A model generated the notes under the pieces. It was not told where the DNA came from. It did no database searches and saw only the letters and a program-made list of their open reading frames with translations. Shown in pieces: positions 16,320 to 33,057 of a stretch of DNA of 35,479 bases. Position numbers and translations under genes: made by a program. The stretch is from a bacterium (GTDB lineage: Bacteria; Patescibacteriota; Minisyncoccia; Phycocordibacterales; Phycocordibacteraceae): assembly GCA_021784815.1 (NCBI GenBank), contig JAJYHK010000013.1:1-35479 (forward strand), read 5' to 3'. Within the stretch, counting starts at the first letter, position 1. Every line of letters starts with the position of its first letter.

Positions 16320-16958
16320 ATGTCTACCAGGATGATCTTTGGTACGCCCTACCCTGACTTCGTCAAGGAGGTTGAGGAAGCATTCTTCGCCGCCATGTCT
16401 AAGGGCTATGCAGGCGACAGCAGCGCAAAGCCGCAGGTGACGCATGCGGGCTGGAAGCGAGCTATCGTGCTACACGGACAGTTCAGTGTCATCGATGAGT
16501 GGAACGACGAGGGCGGACGTACCTTCATCAACTACATCAACTACCACTATGACGACCTGGCGCACGCACACAATCGGCGAGAGGAACCGCCCCTCGTCTG
16601 GGTGATGCGCTACGTCGGCCACTATGAGAAGTGGGCGATCCCGTTGCTCAAGGCGGCGCTTGCCGATCGCTACGAGGCCCGCGAGTTCTGTGGCGGCCGC
16701 GGCCCGAAGGAGTATGCCCCTAAGTACGAGAAGTGCGTACAAGAGATCGTCAAGGAGATCAACGCCTCGGGCGGTAGAAAAGATAGCTCGCCCTTCTGGG
16801 ACGGTTGTGTCTACGGCGACTTCGACTTCTATGAAAACGACTATACCGGCGACTTCACCGACTTTCGCGGCGTGGAGCGCGTCCTCACAAAACACTTTCC
16901 CATTGCACCAGTGAGGTATGGTGGCAGCCACCGATTCTGGGGCGGCATGCTGATATAA
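16320..16958 (+). CDS. Hypothetical protein, DUF5680-like
   Basis: VWVMRYVGHYEK...LLKAALADRY...GGRGPKEYAP...YTGDFTDFRGVERV...RFWGGMLI recalls the DUF5680 motif order; family call from memory. Confidence 0.6.
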   Translation: MSTRMIFGTPYPDFVKEVEEAFFAAMSKGYAGDSSAKPQVTHAGWKRAIVLHGQFSVIDEWNDEGGRTFINYINYHYDDLAHAHNRREEPPLVWVMRYVGHYEKWAIPLLKAALADRYEAREFCGGRGPKEYAPKYEKCVQEIVKEINASGGRKDSSPFWDGCVYGDFDFYENDYTGDFTDFRGVERVLTKHFPIAPVRYGGSHRFWGGMLI

Positions 16959-20265: not shown

Positions 20266-21054
20266 CTAGACAGGGTGTGCAGCGCGACGCGCAGCGACGA
20301 GCTCCTGCACGACGTGCTCAAGCTCCCCAATGTCAAATTCCGCCTTTACGAGGTAGGAATCGGCACCGAGTTCCGTGGCGCGCTTGTGGTCTTCGTCCTG
20401 GCTCAGGTTAGTGAACATAAGGATGGCAGTCCGATCGAGCGCATGGTTCGCGCGCAATTTCTCAAGCACATCGAGCCCGGTCATAGCACCGGGCAGTACG
20501 ATATCGAGAATGATCATGTCGGGAACGCTCGACGACACCTCTGCAAGCGCAGCTTCGCCCGACGTCGCGTACCGCGTCGCGAAGTTCTTGCCCAGTACGC
20601 GGCCCGCGATGTTCTGGAGGAATGGGTCGTCTTCAACAAGCAGCACCGTGATATTTTCATGTACCCGAGGATCGGTAATCTTAGCCGCGAGACCCTTTTT
20701 TACCTTTGCAAGAACTTCGTCCACGGAGAAATCCGCCTTCACGATATAGTCGCGCACTCCGAGGCCCATCGCGCGTGAAATCTGAACCGGCTCGCCAGAA
20801 TTAGAGATGATGACAGTCGGCACACGCTCTATGAGCCCCTCCTTGCTCATGTCCTCAAGGATTTCGTAGCCGCTCTTTTCCGGCAATACAATGTCGAGTA
20901 ACAGGAGATCCGGTGAGATGCGGCGGATCGCCTCCATACCTTCGCGGCCGTTTCGCTCCAGGGTTGCCTCGTACCCTTCCGAGGCAAGCGTCTTTACGAG
21001 CAGATCGCCAAGCACTTTATTGTCTTCAATGATGAGAATGCGTTGCTTATCCAT
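20266..21054 (-). CDS. Response regulator with two tandem receiver domains and no output domain
   Basis: REC1 ILIIEDNKVLGDLL...LLLLDIVLPEKSG...YIVKAD; REC2 VLLVEDDPFLQNIA...IILDIVLPGAMTG...YLVKAE. Confidence 0.93.
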   Translation of the reverse strand: MDKQRILIIEDNKVLGDLLVKTLASEGYEATLERNGREGMEAIRRISPDLLLLDIVLPEKSGYEILEDMSKEGLIERVPTVIISNSGEPVQISRAMGLGVRDYIVKADFSVDEVLAKVKKGLAAKITDPRVHENITVLLVEDDPFLQNIAGRVLGKNFATRYATSGEAALAEVSSSVPDMIILDIVLPGAMTGLDVLEKLRANHALDRTAILMFTNLSQDEDHKRATELGADSYLVKAEFDIGELEHVVQELVAARRAAHPV

Positions 21055-21066
21055 GGCTTCATACTA

Positions 21067-21897
21067 TCACACGGCAGTACGATACTGAGGCAGGGTAAAT
21101 GTGAATGTCGAGCCGTGGTATTCCTTACTCGAGAAGGTCAGCACCCCGCCCATACGCTCAACCGTTTCCTGCGCAAGGTACAGGCCGAGACCCGACCCAT
21201 CCGTTACAAGCTTGACGGCGTTCCGAGCGCGGAAAAATTGCTTGAATATATCTGCTTGCTGATCTTCCGGTATACCAATACCCGTGTCAGTAACCGCGGT
21301 CTGCAGAAATTCTCCGGCATGCGCAAGGCGGATCGTGACCTTGCCGCCCGAGGGCGTATATTTGGTTGCATTTTCCACCAGATTCTGCACCACCAGTCGG
21401 ACCTGTTGTACATCAGCACAGGCCATAGCGTCTTTGGTTAGTTCATTTACAAACTCGATGGAGACCTCGCGCTTCGCAGCGATTGGTTCCACATCCAGCA
21501 GGACGCTCTGCACGACCTCGTGGAGGTCAACGGGTCCGAACGCATACTGCACGCGCCCGGTCTCAAGACGGTCGACGCCGAGTAGGTCATTCACGAGCGT
21601 CACTAACCGGACGGTGCTGTCGAGCGATTGCCGCAAGAGAGTCTCCTGCTCCTCGGTGAAGCTGCCCGTGCGTCCGGATAAGAGGTAGCCGAGCGACCAA
21701 CGGACAGCGGAAAGCGGCGTGCGCAGCTGGTGCGCGGCAACAGAGATGAAGCGCGATTTCTGTTCCCCGAGCGTGCGGAGCTGCTCGTTCGCGCGGGCGA
21801 GCTCAATATCGCGTCGCACTAGCATCTGAGCGCTCCTTTCCTGCTGATTAAGAATCCGCTTAAGCTCTTCCGGCGGTACGGCCGCGGGGTCGATCAT
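21067..21897 (-). CDS. Soluble sensor histidine kinase
   Basis: FISVAAHQLRTPLSAVRWSLGYLL H-box; NLVENATKYTPSGG, DTGIGIPEDQQ, DGSGLGLYLAQ; no obvious TM segment. Confidence 0.94.
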   Translation of the reverse strand: MIDPAAVPPEELKRILNQQERSAQMLVRRDIELARANEQLRTLGEQKSRFISVAAHQLRTPLSAVRWSLGYLLSGRTGSFTEEQETLLRQSLDSTVRLVTLVNDLLGVDRLETGRVQYAFGPVDLHEVVQSVLLDVEPIAAKREVSIEFVNELTKDAMACADVQQVRLVVQNLVENATKYTPSGGKVTIRLAHAGEFLQTAVTDTGIGIPEDQQADIFKQFFRARNAVKLVTDGSGLGLYLAQETVERMGGVLTFSSKEYHGSTFTFTLPQYRTAV

Positions 21898-21899
21898 GG

Positions 21900-23090
21900 T
21901 TAGCCGAGGGTAAGGATAACGACCGTTTCGTTGTGGAACTGCGGATTGCAGCGCGCAAAGTCGCGTGTTTCGCCATTAATGGGGGCCTGTTCGCCGTAGG
22001 TGTAAAAACCTGCGAGCGGCACGCCGAAGCCGAGCACGCTCTGGATAGCGGCTATCTCATCCCCCGCCTGCTCGCCGAAGAGCTTGTTGCGCGCAATGCA
22101 ATTGAAAATAAGTACGGCTTTCGGCTGAACACCCAGTTCGGTCTTGGCGTGCTCGGCCGCCTCGCGAGCGACCGCGATGGCGCCGTCGCGACTGCCGAGC
22201 ATGAGCTGCACGGCAGCGCCCTGCGGTACCTCTGCCGCGCAGGTGATCGAGCCATGCTCGTCGACCGAAAGCGGGTCGCGAATGAGATATTCGTGCTGGT
22301 CGGGCACGCGGACGCCAATCGGATAGAGCACCGCGAGGCGCGCCAAGGTCTCTTGTTTGAGCTTCTCGGCTTCTGCGTCCCCAAAGTAATCTCGATAGAG
22401 GTCAATAGCGGGCTTACCGTCAATTTCGTGGATGACCGCACCATCCGCTTTCGTAACCATGCGTGGTAAGCCGATGGGAAGCCAGCCATGGCGCACGCCG
22501 ATACCGAACGAAAACGATCCTCCAAGACCGACACAAACTACCGTGCCGCTGGTGACTTCCCCGTTGAGGTATTGATAGGTCTTCTCAAAGCGGAAATCAT
22601 CACCCGAGGCTCCGCCCACGACCGGGAAATGCTCGCCGAGTACCTTTTGGACCCCTCGAACGGTATCGGCCCCGTTGCCCGCGAGTACATCCGGCATCAT
22701 GATGAACAACTTGAGACCATCTCCTAAAGACTCTTTGACTGCGCGTGCCGCCGCCATGCCAGCCTGTTGCGGGCCGTCTTGAGCAACATCGCCGCGTCCT
22801 ACCGCCACTTGAAGCGCATCTCCAGCCATCACCATTACAACGACCGAGTGTTTAGCGAGCGGGCCGGCGGTAGCGATTTCTCCAGACGAGGATGAGCCTA
22901 TGACGATCGCTTCGCCGGTCACGGAGCGCACACCGCGCAGCAGTTGTTCTTGTACAAATTGAACCGAGGCAAACACAAAGACGAGCTTTGGGCGTATCCC
23001 CCCAAGCTCTTCTACCGCAGCTTGCGCCGCTTCCACTCCTGCAGCGTACCCATCTTCGGCAGCTGATACTCCCACACCAGATGTAATCAT
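21900..23090 (-). CDS. FIST N/C domain sensory protein
   Basis: PKLVFVFASVQFVQEQLLRGVRSVTGEAIVIGSSSSGEI, VVGGASGDDFRF, C-terminal AVLIFNCIARNKLFGEQAGDEIAAIQSVLGFGVPLAGFYTYGEQAP. Confidence 0.88.
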   Translation of the reverse strand: MITSGVGVSAAEDGYAAGVEAAQAAVEELGGIRPKLVFVFASVQFVQEQLLRGVRSVTGEAIVIGSSSSGEIATAGPLAKHSVVVMVMAGDALQVAVGRGDVAQDGPQQAGMAAARAVKESLGDGLKLFIMMPDVLAGNGADTVRGVQKVLGEHFPVVGGASGDDFRFEKTYQYLNGEVTSGTVVCVGLGGSFSFGIGVRHGWLPIGLPRMVTKADGAVIHEIDGKPAIDLYRDYFGDAEAEKLKQETLARLAVLYPIGVRVPDQHEYLIRDPLSVDEHGSITCAAEVPQGAAVQLMLGSRDGAIAVAREAAEHAKTELGVQPKAVLIFNCIARNKLFGEQAGDEIAAIQSVLGFGVPLAGFYTYGEQAPINGETRDFARCNPQFHNETVVILTLG

Positions 23091-23300: not shown

Positions 23301-25952
23301 TCAAGAACGCTTTTTAAGTTTACGAGTATGCAAAATACGTCGGAGATAGCGACCCGTATGCGACCCGTCCGTATCGGCAACTTCTTCAGGCGTTCCTTTT
23401 GCAATAATCTTGCCTCCGGCTTCGCCGCCCTCCGGCCCAAAATCAATCAAGTAATCAGCGCTCTTAATGACGTCGAGGTTGTGCTCGATCACGACAACCG
23501 TATTCCCTCGACGGACAAGCTCCTGGAGAATCTCAATGAGTTTGCGTACGTCCTCGTAGTGAAGGCCGACCGTCGGCTCATCGAGCAAATAGAGCGTCTT
23601 CATGGTCATCGGCCGGTAGAGTTCGCTTGCGATTTTTACACGCTGCGCCTCGCCACCCGAGAGCGTCGTTGCGCTCTGTCCGAGCGTGAGGTATTCAAGA
23701 CCAGTCGAATTGAGCGACTGTAGCCGATCGGCGATGGCGGGGATGTCAACGAAAAATTTCTCCGCCTCCTCAATCGTCAATTGAAGCACTTCGTGAATAT
23801 TCTTGCCGCGATATGTAATTTCAAGCGTCTCCTTCATAAAGCGCGTCCCTTCACAGACATCGCAGGTCACGTAGACCGTGGGCAGGAAATGCATCTCAAC
23901 AGCAATCGAGCCATTGCCCTGGCACGCCTCACAGCGGCCGCCCGGCACGTTGAATGAGAACCGGCCGGGTTTCCAGCCCCGAGAGCGCGCCTCCGCAGTC
24001 GCCGCAAAAAGATCGCGAATATGGGTAAACGCGCCCGTGTAGGTTGCGGGGTTACTACGCGGCGTGCGGCCAATCGGCGATTGGTCTATGAGCACCGCGC
24101 GACTCACATACTCGGTGCCCGTCATCGCGGCGATGTGCTCGAGCTTCGCCTCACGCTTCGCGAAGCGCGCCGCGATATTTCGGTGCAAAATGTCGTACAA
24201 AAAGGTCGACTTCCCCGAACCCGAGACGCCAGTGATGCATACGAGCTTGCCGAGTGGCACGTCGATGTTTTGATTCTCGAGGTTGTGGAGCGTTGCGCCT
24301 TTGATGCGGATCATACCCTTGTCCTTCGTGCGTCGCTCGCTCGGGACGGCGATTTCCTGCTCGTGTCGCAGATAGGATAGCGTGATCGAGCCTGAATCGT
24401 TTTTCGATGCCGTGAGAAGCTCATCGAGCCAGCCATGTGCAACCACGTTGCCGCCATGCACGCCCGCTCCCGGACCGATGTCGACAATATAGTCTGCGGC
24501 GTAAATAGTATCCTCGTCGTGTTCGACGATTATGATCGTGTTGCCGAGCTCCTTGAGGGTTAGGAGCGTTTGAATAAGCCGGTCGTTGTCACGCTGATGG
24601 AGGCCGATAGTCGGCTCATCAAGTACGTAGAGCGCGCCCGTGAGCCCACTGCCGAGCTGCGAAGCGAGTCTGATCCGCTGCGCCTCCCCGCCTGAGAGGG
24701 TTGCTGCGCTGCGATCAAGCGTAAGATAGTCGAGTCCGATGTCGAGCATGAAAGTGAGCCGACTGCTGATTTCCTTAAGCACGGGCACCGCTATATCTCG
24801 CCGCATTTCTGAAAGTTCTATGGAATCAACAAACTGTTTCGCATCAGCGATCGACATACCAACAAAATCAACGATGTTTTCCCCCAATCCTGTTTCCTTG
24901 CCGCTCTTGAGGTACACGCGCAGCGCCTCAGGGCGGAGGCGCTTCCCTTCGCACACCGGGCACGACTTTTCCGAAAAAAGCGATTCCGTGCCGAGACCGT
25001 TACAAGCCGCGCACGCGCCGTAGGGCGAGTTGAAAGAGAAGAGCCGCGGTTCAACCTCGGGGAACGAGGCGCCGTCTTCGGGACAAATGAACTTAGACGA
25101 AAGTGTTTCCGTCGAGCCGTCCGCATGCTTGATCTTTACCAAGCCGTCGGCTTCTTTGAGCGCAATTTCGAGCGCCTCGGAGAGGCGCTCGCGGGCGGCG
25201 GGTGCGGAACGTTCAAATTCAGACACGAAAATCTGATCCACCGCGGCATCTATGTCGTGCCGCTTGTTGCGGTCGAGGACGATTTTTTCGCGCAGGGAAT
25301 GCTTTATTCCGTCAACGAGTACCGTCTCAAAACCCTTGCTAAGAAGATCGTAGAGCAACTGATAATACTCGCCTTTGCGGCCGACTACCACCGGCGCATA
25401 GACGGCGACTGCACTTTTATCGACCGGCACGCCCTTCACCGATTCCGCTGCACCATGCGCGCGCCGTTTCTCGATAGTTGTCATGACCATTTTTATCATT
25501 TCTTCCTTCGATAGCCGAACGATAGGGACGTCGTGGTTGACGCAGTACGGCTGCCCCGCACGCGCATAGAGTACGCGCAGATAGTCGTAAATCTCGGTCA
25601 CCGTCGCCACGGTCGAGCGCGGGTTGTTGGAGCGGCTTTTCTGGTCGATCGAGATCGCGGGCGAAAGCCCGTCGATCTCATCAACATCGGGTTTGCTCAT
25701 CTGATTAAGGAATTGGCGCGCGTACGCCGAAAGGCTCTCTACGTACCGCCGCTGTCCCTCCGCAAAGATAGTGTCGAACGCGAGCGAAGATTTTCCTGAG
25801 CCGGAGAGGCCGGTGATGACCGTCATGGCGCCACGCGGCATATCCACGGAAATGTTCTTCAGGTTGTGCGTGCGCGCGCCTTTGATGGAAACCCAGTCGC
25901 TCCCATGACGATGGCCATGGGCATGCACTTTGTTCGTCTTTTTTGCTGTCAT
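23301..25952 (-). CDS. uvrA: Excinuclease ABC subunit A
   Basis: [91 protein letters not shown]. True start is the internal ATG at 25952. Confidence 0.98.
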
Positions 25953-26013
25953 GCAAATAAGCTGCCCGTGGCGGGGCAGAGAGGGCCACACTATACCACG
26001 GGCTCCAGAAACC

Positions 26014-27633
26014 TCATACGGTGTGCGAGACCTGCGCGGGGACGGGGACGGTGAGCGTAGCGTGCGTACCGCCCGACGCGTTCGGCACGAGACGAACCGT
26101 ACCCCCATGCGCGTGCGCAATCGATTGTGCGATATAGAGCCCGAGGCCGGATCCGTCCGTAACCATGCGGCGCGCATACTCGCTACGGAAAAAGCGCTCA
26201 AAGAGATGCGCTTGATCCTCTGGGCGTATGCCGATACCTGTATCGAGAACCTCGATACGCGCGCTCCCTGTCGATTGAACGAGCCGCACTCTGACCGACC
26301 CCCCGCTCGGGGTATATTTAAGCGCGTTATCGAGCAGGTTCTCAATGGCCATAGTGAACCGGTCGCGATCGAAGCGTGCTGGAACAGCTTCCGCAGGGAG
26401 CTCGATCAATAGCGTGACCTTTTTCTGATCGGCCTCATGCGCGAACGCCGCGCTAACCGAACGTACGACCTCTCGAAGATCGCCCTCTGCAAACGAGTAC
26501 GGCGCGTCGCTGTTCTCGGCGCAAGCTGCGCGCAAAAGGTCATCAACGAGGTCAGTCATGTGCTTCGCTGCCTCGTTCCCCTTCACCACAAGCTCTCGAT
26601 TCTCGGGTGAAAGCGACGCATCGGCGCCGAGCAGACTAAGTACCCAGCGCACGGCGGAGAGCGGGGTTCGGAGCTGATGAGCGGCAACGCTGACGAACTC
26701 CGATTTCGCTCGATCGATCGTGAGCCGGGCGAGCTTCTTCTGCGTGCGCATTTCGACTACGACCGATCGCAAGAGAAAAACGCCGAGGAGGAGCACCACG
26801 GCGAAGAGTGCGAGATCCGGAATGGCAGCGGCAAGCGTCGGATCGAGGAGGACACGGAAGAAGGTAAGGCTCCAGAGCGCAAAGACGAGCACCTGCGCCG
26901 CGGCGACCTGGAGATTGAGGAGCCGATACCGCTGCATCGCGTAGAGCACCGCGAAGACGAAAATCGGGTACCCAAGGTCCCCTATTACGGGATAGAACGG
27001 TACTCCGTACCACGAAGTAAACCTCGTACCGCCGAATACAAAACCAAGCGTCATGCTCGCGAAAAGGATCTGCCCGCGTCGGCGATCCAACGGATCACTC
27101 CCCGCATGAGCGCGGACTACAAGCAATATCGCGGAAAACACGGTGATAGCTATGTAGTAGCCGATAAGTACGCCCATCAGCGGACCTGCGCGGGGAGCGA
27201 GCACTACCTGGGTCGATCCGCTAACTATCCCCACTACAAGGTGCGTCCCAAGAAGCAAATCGCTCGCGAGCACCGCAAGGAGCGCGGCGCCCCCAGCATA
27301 CCCGATGTTAACCAGTATTTGTGTCACGCGACGAAGCGGTACGCGCTCGGTTAGGTACGCGACTGCAAAGTGGAGCTCGGCGAGGTTGAGGCACACGATG
27401 CCCACCACCGAGAGAGCTCGCAGCTCCCGAGCAGCCCACGGGCTAGCGCTCAGGTAGTAAAAGAAGCCAAACCACGCCCAGAGCATGCTCGCGAGCAAGA
27501 TGAGCACGAGCGAAATGCCGAGACGCTCCTTACGCGCGCTCAAGAAGACAAAGAGAGTAAGCACCGTCGCGAGAAATGCAGCAACCCCGATACCGCTCGA
27601 TTGTACGAGTGCCGGACTGAAAACCAGACCCAT
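26014..27633 (-). CDS. Membrane sensor histidine kinase with N-terminal 7TM-like region
   Basis: Multiple hydrophobic N-terminal segments, FVSVAAHQLRTPLSAVRWVLSLL, NLLDNALKYTPSGG, DGSGLGLYIAQSIAHAHGG. Confidence 0.92.
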   Translation of the reverse strand: MGLVFSPALVQSSGIGVAAFLATVLTLFVFLSARKERLGISLVLILLASMLWAWFGFFYYLSASPWAARELRALSVVGIVCLNLAELHFAVAYLTERVPLRRVTQILVNIGYAGGAALLAVLASDLLLGTHLVVGIVSGSTQVVLAPRAGPLMGVLIGYYIAITVFSAILLVVRAHAGSDPLDRRRGQILFASMTLGFVFGGTRFTSWYGVPFYPVIGDLGYPIFVFAVLYAMQRYRLLNLQVAAAQVLVFALWSLTFFRVLLDPTLAAAIPDLALFAVVLLLGVFLLRSVVVEMRTQKKLARLTIDRAKSEFVSVAAHQLRTPLSAVRWVLSLLGADASLSPENRELVVKGNEAAKHMTDLVDDLLRAACAENSDAPYSFAEGDLREVVRSVSAAFAHEADQKKVTLLIELPAEAVPARFDRDRFTMAIENLLDNALKYTPSGGSVRVRLVQSTGSARIEVLDTGIGIRPEDQAHLFERFFRSEYARRMVTDGSGLGLYIAQSIAHAHGGTVRLVPNASGGTHATLTVPVPAQVSHTV

Positions 27634-27791
27634 GCCTCTAAGCGTAACATGCGTGCCGGTCCCTCCTGCGGACGCATGTGTCTATAAAAATGAGCGACGG
27701 CCTGCCTGCCTGTTTACATTGTTAGAAAATATGATAGCGTGTGCTACGGACGCTCACTTATGGGAGTCCATAACTCACAGGAGGATACGAC

Positions 27792-28355
27792 GTGCCCAGT
27801 ATCTCGCGGCTCGCGGAGCGAGCCAAAGTTGCCGCATTCGGCCTTGCGGCCGCCGCGCTCTTGGCCATCGGCCTCGGCACGGTACCCGCATGGGCGACGC
27901 CCATCAGCCAGGAGTTCAACGAGTCCGGCATCGGGTCTTTCGGCAGCGTGCTGGTATACTCGCCCGACGGTGGGACAATGTCGCTCGCGGCGGTGGGAGC
28001 GCCCTGGTCGGCCCATGCGAACGGCAACGTCGCGTGGCTCGAAGGGTCTGCGCTTACGTCCCTGAACTTCATGATGAACGCGAACGTACCGGTTCCCACG
28101 GACCTTTTCTTCGCGGCGTTCGCTGACGGCATCGGCTCGACCGTGCTCGATACGGCGAATGTCGACTATAACGCTGCCGGCCAGCTGACCATCACCGACC
28201 CCGCGAACGACAGCGGGCCGCAGCTCGTGGCGGCGCTGAACGCCGTGCCGGAGCCCGGCAGCCTCGCGCTGCTCGGCGTTGGTCTGCTCGGACTCGGCCT
28301 CGCGGTCGGTCGCCGCCGCAAGGCAACCACCAGCGTTCTGCCGGCCAGCGTCTGA
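27792..28355 (+). CDS. PEP-CTERM sorting-domain exported protein
   Basis: GTG start with AGGAGGA SD; signal peptide AERAKVAAFGLAAAALLAIGLGTVPAWA; C-terminal VPEPGSLALLGVGLLGLGLAVGRRRK tripartite PEP-CTERM signal. Confidence 0.85.
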   Translation: MPSISRLAERAKVAAFGLAAAALLAIGLGTVPAWATPISQEFNESGIGSFGSVLVYSPDGGTMSLAAVGAPWSAHANGNVAWLEGSALTSLNFMMNANVPVPTDLFFAAFADGIGSTVLDTANVDYNAAGQLTITDPANDSGPQLVAALNAVPEPGSLALLGVGLLGLGLAVGRRRKATTSVLPASV

Positions 28356-28379
28356 CGACGATCCCTGGACTAACAACAC

Positions 28380-28407
28380 GGGCCTGCATCCTTCGGGATG
28401 CAGGCCC
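28380..28407 (+). terminator. Rho-independent terminator with C(TTCG)G loop
   Basis: gggcctgcatcc-ttcg-ggatgcaggccc followed by ggctcttttctttt. Confidence 0.88.
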
Positions 28408-28429
28408 GGCTCTTTTCTTTTGATGTCTT

Positions 28430-30472
28430 TTAATGCAACGGCTTGCGCATGCGCGCAGGCTTTTTTGGTTTCGTGCCTTCGAGCTCGTACAGCTCATCGC
28501 GAATGAGCGCCGCAGTCTCGAAGTCGAGCCGCTCGACTGCGTCCGCCATCTCTCGACGTTTTGCTTCAATAAACGCCTTCGGGTCGTCTTTGTATGCGAG
28601 CTTGTCGAGCACAAGGAGCTCGCCCACGGTCTTTTGGTGCTCGCTCCGCATCGTCTCGGCAATGTCGCGGATCTCTTTTTTAACCGTTTGCGGGGTAATG
28701 CCGTGTTCCCGGTTGTAGGCGAGCTGCTGTTCGCGGCGTCGATTCGTTTCGCCAATGGCCCGCTCAAGCGAACCGGTCATCACGTCGGCATACAGGATGA
28801 CCCGCCCCAGCACATTACGCGCCGCACGGCCGATCGTTTGAATGAGGCTCGTCTCGCTGCGCAAAAAACCCTCCTTGTCGGCGTCGAGAATGCCGACCAG
28901 TTCGACCTCGGGCAGGTCGAGCCCCTCGCGCAGGAGGTTGACTCCGACCAGGATATCAAACTGGCCGCGCCGGAACTTCGTGAGGATGTCGATGCGGTCG
29001 ATCGTTTTGACGTCCGAGTGGAGGTATTCGGCCTTGATCTTGCGGTCGCGCAGGAAAGCCGCAAGGTCCTCGGCCATCTGCTTGGTCAAGGTCGTTGCCA
29101 GCACACGGCCGCCGTTTTTAATCGTTTTGTCCGCTTCCTCTATGAAGTCCGCTACCTGGCCCGAATAGCCCGTATGCTCGACGATGCCGCGCACGACGAG
29201 CTCCGGATCAACGAGACCGGTAGGACGAATGATCTGCTCTACCATCTGCGTAGAATGTTCTCGCTCGTAGACGCCCGGCGTCGCGCTCGTATAAATGCTT
29301 TCGCCAACGCGCTCCTCAAACTCTTCAAAGGTAAGCGGGCGGTTGTCGCGGGCGCTCGGGAGGCGAAATCCGTGCTCAATGAGCACATCTTTGCGGGAAC
29401 GATCTCCCGCGTACATACCGCCAATCTGCGGGATCGTCACGTGCGATTCGTCGATGACCGTCAGGAAGCCGGGATCACAGCGCTTGAAATAGTCGAGCAG
29501 CGTGTATGGCGGTTCGTCCGGCTTGCGGCCGTCGAAGTGGCGCGAGTAGTTCTCGATGCCGTTCGTGTAGCCAAGTTCGCGAATGAGCGCAATGTCGTGG
29601 AGCGTACGCCGCTTCAAGCGTTCCGCTTCAAGCGGCTTTTCTTCCCGCTTGAACTTGGCGAGTTGCTCGTCAAGCTCTTCCTTGATGTCCCGGAGCGCAC
29701 GGTCGCGCTCCTCCTCGTTCGTCACGAAGTGTTTGGCGGGAAAGACAAAGAGCGACTCCGGTTGGCGTACTTTGGCGCGCGATATCGGATCGAGCTGCTC
29801 AATGCGTTCGATCTCGGTTCCGGAGAAAGTAACACGATAGAGCGCTCGCTCGTTGACCGGCATGAACTCGAGCGCGTTCCCTATCGCCCGCAGTTGGCCT
29901 GGCTCTAGATCGGCAGTCGTACGCTCGAAGTAAATGCCGATAAGTTTGCGAATGAGCGACGCGCGATCTTCGTCAGCGCCCGCGGCGATCTTGACATGCA
30001 CTTTCTCATATTCCTCAGGCGAGCCGAGGCCGTATATCGCAGAAACCGATGCGACGATGATGACATCCTTGCGCGTGAGGAGCGCCTGGGTCGCCGCGTG
30101 GCGGAGCCGGTCGATCTCGGCGTTCACCATCGCCTCTTTCTCGATATAGGTATCCGAATGCGCGATATACGCTTCCGGCTGGTAGTAATCGTAGTAGGAG
30201 ACGAAGTAGTGGACCGCGTTCTCCGGAAAGAATTCTCGGTACTCCTGCGCGAGCTGAGCGGCAAGCGTCTTATTGTGAGCGAGCACAAGGGTCGGCTTCT
30301 CGCGCCGCGCGATGATGTTTGCGACCGTGAACGTCTTGCCCGAGCCGGTCACCCCGAGAAGCGTCTGCTGACGCATTCCTTTTTCGAGTCCCGCGGTAAG
30401 GGCCGTAATTGCGGCCGGCTGGTCGCCGGCCGGCGGAAAGGGCGTCTGCAGCGTAAATACTTGACGCGTCAT
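28430..30472 (-). CDS. uvrB: Excinuclease ABC subunit B
   Basis: [51 protein letters not shown]-terminal UVR motif [18 protein letters not shown]. Confidence 0.98.
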
Positions 30473-32310: not shown

Positions 32311-33057
32311 TTACGGCCGCGTCGGATCAGACGGGGGCGGCAGGGGGGCATTGGTCGTTGCCGGATGCGTCTCTCCCGACCCCAAAACCGGACCATCGGG
32401 AACGGATGACCCATACCCCACGGGGCGACTCAATGCCGGCGGCGCGGAATCACCCCACCGCTTCCCGTAGTACACGACCTCGACATGAGCCCCCGAGAAC
32501 AACGGGCTCGTATGCACAACGTCATCCCAGAAGTCGCGAGTACAGGTACCAACAGCCGAGGCCATCGCGTAGCTGCCGGTAATGATACCGTTCACGCCAC
32601 CCAGCCCCAGTTCGGTCAGGCCTCCATAGAGGCCATAGGTTCCAACCGTCGCGGCCGCTCCGAACGCCGCATGTGCGCCGACGCCGGTACCCACGGTGCC
32701 TGCCGCTCCGTATGGCACCGCACTCCCCACGAAGGATTGTACGGGACCCGACAGCTGAGGAGACACTTGATGCTGACAGGAGATGTTGTACTCCTGAATC
32801 TTCATGAAGGCCTGCGGCGACAGATGGCCCCCATTGATATCCGGATTCTGCACAATCGCCACCTGTGCGGAAGCCATCGCGCTGTAGAGGAGACGACCGT
32901 TTTCACTCGCCGTCTTGACCTCGTCCTCCGTCTTTTTGTTGACCTCCGCGTAGCCGTTGAACGGGCTCTGCGCGCAGGCGCTCAAGCTGGCCAATAGAAT
33001 GAGCAGAGACGCGATACGCAGACGCGTACCGAGAACCGCACGGATCTGCACCCGCAT
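32311..33057 (-). CDS. Putative lipoprotein, function unknown
   Basis: Signal with lipobox: IASLLILLASLSAC; AAGGAGGAGTACA SD before the ATG; Gly/Ala-rich central segment. Confidence 0.7.
   Translation of the reverse strand: MRVQIRAVLGTRLRIASLLILLASLSACAQSPFNGYAEVNKKTEDEVKTASENGRLLYSAMASAQVAIVQNPDINGGHLSPQAFMKIQEYNISCQHQVSPQLSGPVQSFVGSAVPYGAAGTVGTGVGAHAAFGAAATVGTYGLYGGLTELGLGGVNGIITGSYAMASAVGTCTRDFWDDVVHTSPLFSGAHVEVVYYGKRWGDSAPPALSRPVGYGSSVPDGPVLGSGETHPATTNAPLPPPSDPTRP

Follow-up and report, generated by a model that had tools for sequence, protein, structure and literature searches.

The window (the complete stretch of 35,479 nucleotides analysed here) contains one gene for a PEP-CTERM protein, in a small genome in which no exosortase was detected. 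The most probable explanation (probability roughly 0.75) is that this gene was captured without its sorting enzyme from an exosortase-containing bacterium, and that its product is exported via Sec and stays C-terminally anchored in uncleaved form.

The open reading frame spans exactly 27792-28355 (+) and contains VPEPGSLALLGVGLLGLGLAVGRRRK (Table 1). The encoded protein begins with MPSISRLAERAKVAAFGLAAAALLAIGLGTVPAWA, which, judged by composition, represents a signal peptide (cleavage probably after AWA), and ends with VPEPGSLALLGVGLLGLGLAVGRRRKATTSVLPASV. The C-terminal domain is matched by Pfam model PF07589 (PEP-CTERM; 28.8 bits, E 1.2e-6, residues 151-175, cut-off 20.7) and by NCBIfam model TIGR02595 (24.3 bits, cut-off 16). 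Thus, the original prediction of a signal peptide combined with a PEP-CTERM domain is borne out, both models scoring above their curated cut-offs. Strongly hydrophobic 19-residue windows are found only at the two ends (starts 10-18 at the N-terminus and 154-156 at the C-terminus), i.e., composition indicates no membrane span between the two terminal segments. The intervening exported domain has no Pfam family match, and its AlphaFold single-sequence model (pLDDT 43.7, pTM 0.23) is too weak for a fold search.

Table 1 Features of the orphan PEP-CTERM gene, its product and its surroundings (positions in the window)
Feature	Position	Strand	Basis or remark
uvrA, other border of insertion spot	23301..25952	-	adjoins uvrB directly in six congeners
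Histidine kinase, N-terminal 7TM region, divergent neighbour	26014..27633	-	PF16927, PF00512, PF02518
Shine-Dalgarno sequence AGGAGGA	27779..27785	+	six bases 5' of GTG
Orphan PEP-CTERM CDS	27792..28355	+	187 aa, GTG start; PF07589 and TIGR02595 matches; GC 0.681, GC3 0.830
Predicted Sec signal peptide, residues 1-35	27792..27896	+	R/K-containing n-region, hydrophobic stretch 10-36, AWA site
Exported domain, residues 36-151	27897..28244	+	no family; eight short strands in low-confidence model
PEP-CTERM domain (VPEP motif, hydrophobic helix, RRRK)	28245..28322	+	PF07589 and TIGR02595 above cut-off
Intrinsic terminator (13-bp stem, TTCG loop, T-rich tail)	28379..28420	+	hairpin and fold score
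uvrB, one border of insertion spot	28430..30472	-	85 % identical to congener G024

The genome harbouring the window comprises 771,135 bases on 19 contigs and is estimated to be 99.87 % complete. It yielded no match to the exosortase model PF09721 at E ≤ 0.01 and none to the broader exosortase/archaeosortase model TIGR04178 at E ≤ 1; the PEP-CTERM model search of the whole genome returned one site only, at 27792-28355. The genome-wide search proposed along with the original prediction therefore revealed, with these three models, neither an exosortase nor a further PEP-CTERM protein. Signal peptidase I and two PF04203 sortases are encoded, and the secretin PF00263, one marker of an outer membrane, was not found in this genome. 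As a separate observation, genes read by eye as CyoB/C/D-like subunits of a cytochrome bo oxidase are located on contig C5 (about 103-106 kb) of this 771-kb genome (G000).

The orphan state recurs across Patescibacteriota. Among 99 genomes sampled from the genus and order, 13 carry a PEP-CTERM domain above cut-off and none an exosortase. Accordingly, a full exosortase system is not common in the clade, and the earlier claim that this genome carries a canonical exosortase signal foreign to it holds. Across the phylum (381 genomes sampled), PEP-CTERM was detected in 12 genomes and exosortase in eight, the latter all without a PEP-CTERM domain; since chance predicts only about 0.25 genomes with both, the observed overlap of zero is no proof of mutual exclusion. 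Both samples together contain 24 distinct PEP-CTERM carriers, none with an exosortase above cut-off and none with a TIGR04178 match above cut-off. As a positive control outside the phylum, the PF09721 search recovered exosortase in 26 of 26 PEP-CTERM genomes (best E per genome 3e-35 to 9e-78), these having been chosen for their PEP-CTERM match by similarity to a strong signal. Fisher's test for 0/24 versus 26/26 gives p 8e-15, a value which ignores kinship and is indicative only, given the choice of control genomes. At high completeness, the genomes listed from the phylum sample measure roughly 0.4-1.7 Mb, a size range on which, together with the original statement, the assignment to Patescibacteria/CPR is based.

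The orphan genes exceed the median GC content of their neighbours at 33 of 34 loci (median +0.11, Wilcoxon p 1e-6). Nearly all products retain the signal peptide and the C-terminal PEP-CTERM domain (exceptions in G069, G006 and G019), and they are seldom alike outside the signal. Two orphans in G039 end in PEPxxWAMM, a form known from Alphaproteobacteria. The single-contig genome G060 (981,549 bp) harbours three orphans with a GC content of 0.57-0.63 versus about 0.37 in the surrounding genes, ruling out binning contamination in this case. G060 also contains many further high-GC genes in isolated positions (0.52-0.63), several of which have signal peptides; they look like a large set of single-gene captures. 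This suggests broad uptake of foreign genes in G060, of which the PEP-CTERM genes may form one recognisable part. A family common to G066 and G074, examined for conservation of the motif within the phylum, is sporadic, with members in 5 of 247 genomes from the order. In G040 (contig C7, 31826-32903), two tandem PEP-CTERM genes share the same C-terminus; one has seemingly lost its stop codon and reads into the terminator region, while the other displays SEP for PEP. Taken together, the recurrence in at least two dozen relatives within the phylum suggests that single genes for surface proteins have been captured repeatedly from other bacteria.

The gene stands alone, as originally described, being convergent with uvrB (74 bp off) and divergent from the histidine kinase gene (158 bp off). 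In six congeners the uvrB-uvrA gap measures 40-100 bp, and in other congeners the junction (25953-28429 in the window) holds 0.2-2.5 kb of unrelated cargo, including secreted proteins, kinases and response regulators. The short gap in the former and the unrelated genes in the latter characterize the junction as a gene-turnover spot, and both the kinase gene and the PEP-CTERM gene are therefore additions. The kinase gene is of ordinary composition (GC3 0.678) and is likewise missing from the empty junctions. It was considered as PrsK, which is not among the best 25 models listed, and as a co-inserted partner, which is at variance with the different kinases present at this spot in other congeners. 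Further away in the window, an operon-like run (20266-23090) encodes a FIST-domain protein (NosP-like, under the cut-off of the NosP model), a histidine kinase and a double-receiver regulator.

A search of 58 congeners revealed no ortholog of the PEP-CTERM protein. Among 228 ORFs sampled from 258 kb of the genome, its gene has the highest GC3 value; however, the comparison of codon usage, which had been suggested as a check on foreignness, yielded no such sign, since codon choice tends towards the native pattern (z +2.3). The richness of PEP-CTERM proteins in Ala, Gly and Pro alone raises GC. In view of the ordinary codon choice, the arguments for transfer are the position of the gene, its absence from relatives, its GC content and its ribosome site. 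The predicted AGGAGGA was confirmed at 27779-27785; a strong Shine-Dalgarno sequence is rare in this genome (7 of 175 sampled ORFs or 4 %, scored before the first ATG). The terminator was confirmed as well, with a hairpin at 28379-28408 consisting of a perfect 13-bp stem, followed by GCTCTTTTCTTTT (fold z-score -5.4). A promoter-like sequence of its own, which had also been claimed, was not recovered, as a sigma-70 consensus scan of 27500-28500 returned zero sites. Overall, the originally proposed lateral acquisition gains support from the junction being empty in congeners, the compositional outlier status, the rare strong Shine-Dalgarno sequence and the lack of an ortholog in the 58 congeners, and the gene is apparently a recent insertion into the uvrB-uvrA junction. 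Among the inspected window genes, only two others are preceded by a strong Shine-Dalgarno-like sequence (16320-16958 and 32311-33057, the latter with no family match); these may have been acquired too.

Searches for a source returned no donor ortholog; the host donor and the host-mimic role put forward originally are hypothetical. By peptide patterns, no close relatives were found in 84,980 genomes, and the PEP-CTERM alignment search retrieved proteins from many phyla that are alike in the sorting domain only. The best partial full-length match, a Rhodospirillaceae protein, shares about 30 % identity. Plasmid records contained no match to the protein, and PDB sequences gave chance-level matches only.

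These findings can be combined into the following scenario. A small-genome, Patescibacteria-like bacterium would have captured a gene for a PEP-CTERM surface protein from a bacterium possessing exosortase, and the gene, with no sorting enzyme alongside, would have been inserted between uvrB and uvrA. The protein would be exported through Sec, with the signal peptide probably removed by signal peptidase I. According to the established model, the C-terminal helix retains a PEP-CTERM protein after export until exosortase cuts (PMC1569441). Since no exosortase was detected here, the cutting step should not occur and the protein should remain membrane-anchored: the C-terminal helix and the RRRK stop-transfer cluster would stay in the cytoplasmic membrane, and the small domain would be presented on an ordinary membrane protein with a C-terminal anchor. 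Cleavage of the PEP signal by some unrecognised enzyme is conceivable.

The gene may instead be a neutral passenger, i.e., one of many foreign single genes, unselected so far, perhaps unexpressed and bound to be lost. This possibility, which appears rather doubtful, shares lateral capture with the preferred explanation and differs only in denying function. It agrees with the sporadic, species-specific occurrence, with the general gene turnover and unrelated cargo at uvrB-uvrA and with the many other high-GC single genes in G060. Some relatives also look decayed, namely the fragment in G069, the protein without signal peptide in G006, the G040 copy reading through into the terminator region and SEP, PES and PET variants. 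However, signal peptide and intact PEP-CTERM domain are kept in most sampled copies, and the copy in the window is likewise intact and has both a ribosome site and a terminator. A more far-reaching and improbable proposal assigns a definite role to the orphans: small parasitic or epibiotic bacteria would repeatedly capture and keep single PEP-CTERM genes of the bacteria on which they live and display the products as a borrowed coat or adhesin, either in uncleaved form or after processing in trans through the partner's exosortase. If true, the type of each orphan would name the partner or donor.

Processing by a divergent membrane protease, not recognised as exosortase by profile, is also conceivable, if quite unlikely. 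Rhombosortase and myxosortase are C-terminal sorting proteases of unrelated families. Such precedents (PMC3237569, PMC11980579) favour a hidden protease, as do the PEP motifs kept in most copies and the PF04203 sortases in most carriers (including the two mentioned above). A sortase as general partner of the PEP signal is nevertheless contradicted by 5 of the 25 genomes searched (G067, G069, G093, G293 and G368), in which PF04203 is absent. The failure of TIGR04178 to match in any carrier likewise speaks against a hidden enzyme, a dedicated protease would hardly pay for one signal per genome, and sporadic, compositionally foreign genes fit capture rather than a resident system. Contamination by faulty assembly or binning could be suspected from the contig, which represents 35 kb of a draft genome in 19 contigs; yet native genes lie within 74 and 158 bp on either side, and two false joins flanking a complete gene with terminator would be required for a chimera. 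Together with the three orphans of single-contig G060 and others on contigs above 200 kb, this makes an artefact highly improbable.

PEP-CTERM and exosortase are a standard example of a co-occurring signal and enzyme. A signal without enzyme in 24 sampled genomes, and an enzyme without signal in eight others, thus constitute an exception in need of explanation and imply that a PEP-CTERM match alone does not indicate exosortase sorting. Their foreign composition also makes the orphan genes candidate markers of bacteria exchanging DNA with these mostly uncultured cells and possibly of their partners. A literature search combining PEP-CTERM with Patescibacteria, Parcubacteria or candidate phyla radiation did not retrieve the pattern, subscription papers being mostly outside this search; this supports the view that the orphan pattern in the phylum is new to the literature. 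A study of a Patescibacterium on floc-forming Zoogloea refers to PEP-CTERM in the reference list only (PMC11393006), and the two other papers retrieved apparently deal with different bacteria.

Compared with known systems, the flocculation protein PepA (NF033554) is the best NCBIfam match (38.4 bits, residues 85-177); its score is far below the cut-off of 80 and derives partly from the sorting domain. LPXTG/sortase surface proteins resemble the present protein in their C-terminal motif, helix and basic tail, and two PF04203 sortases are encoded in the genome, but the protein contains no LPXTG motif (LPXTG_anchor score 13.7 versus a cut-off of 15.9). Close correspondence is seen with the PEP-CTERM/exosortase (EpsH) system (PMC1569441), which shares the N-terminal signal peptide, the lack of a span in between, the C-terminal PEP motif with helix and basic cluster, the single-gene transcription unit and an exported domain without recognisable homology. 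The present case differs in the lack of an exosortase in the genome and in the single PEP-CTERM protein versus a median of 8 reported by Haft et al. 2006 (PMC1569441), and hosts of the known system are diderm, exopolysaccharide-producing environmental bacteria rather than a small-genome bacterium. Hallmarks of the proteobacterial PEP-CTERM regulon (PrsK/PrsR, sigma-54) are likewise absent upstream of the gene: no sigma-54 -24/-12 site was found at up to two mismatches, a PrsR box is missing, and TTTACA at about 27713 leaves no space for the 63-nt spacer plus motif 2 described in PMC1569441. A PEP-CTERM signal without enzyme has a precedent in Chlorobium tepidum TLS, which possesses two PEP-CTERM domains and no EpsH and was considered a likely degenerate case, arising through loss (PMC1569441). 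Whereas this is a single species explained by loss, the sporadic, compositionally foreign genes in 24 sampled genomes point to a probable gain of the substrate alone.
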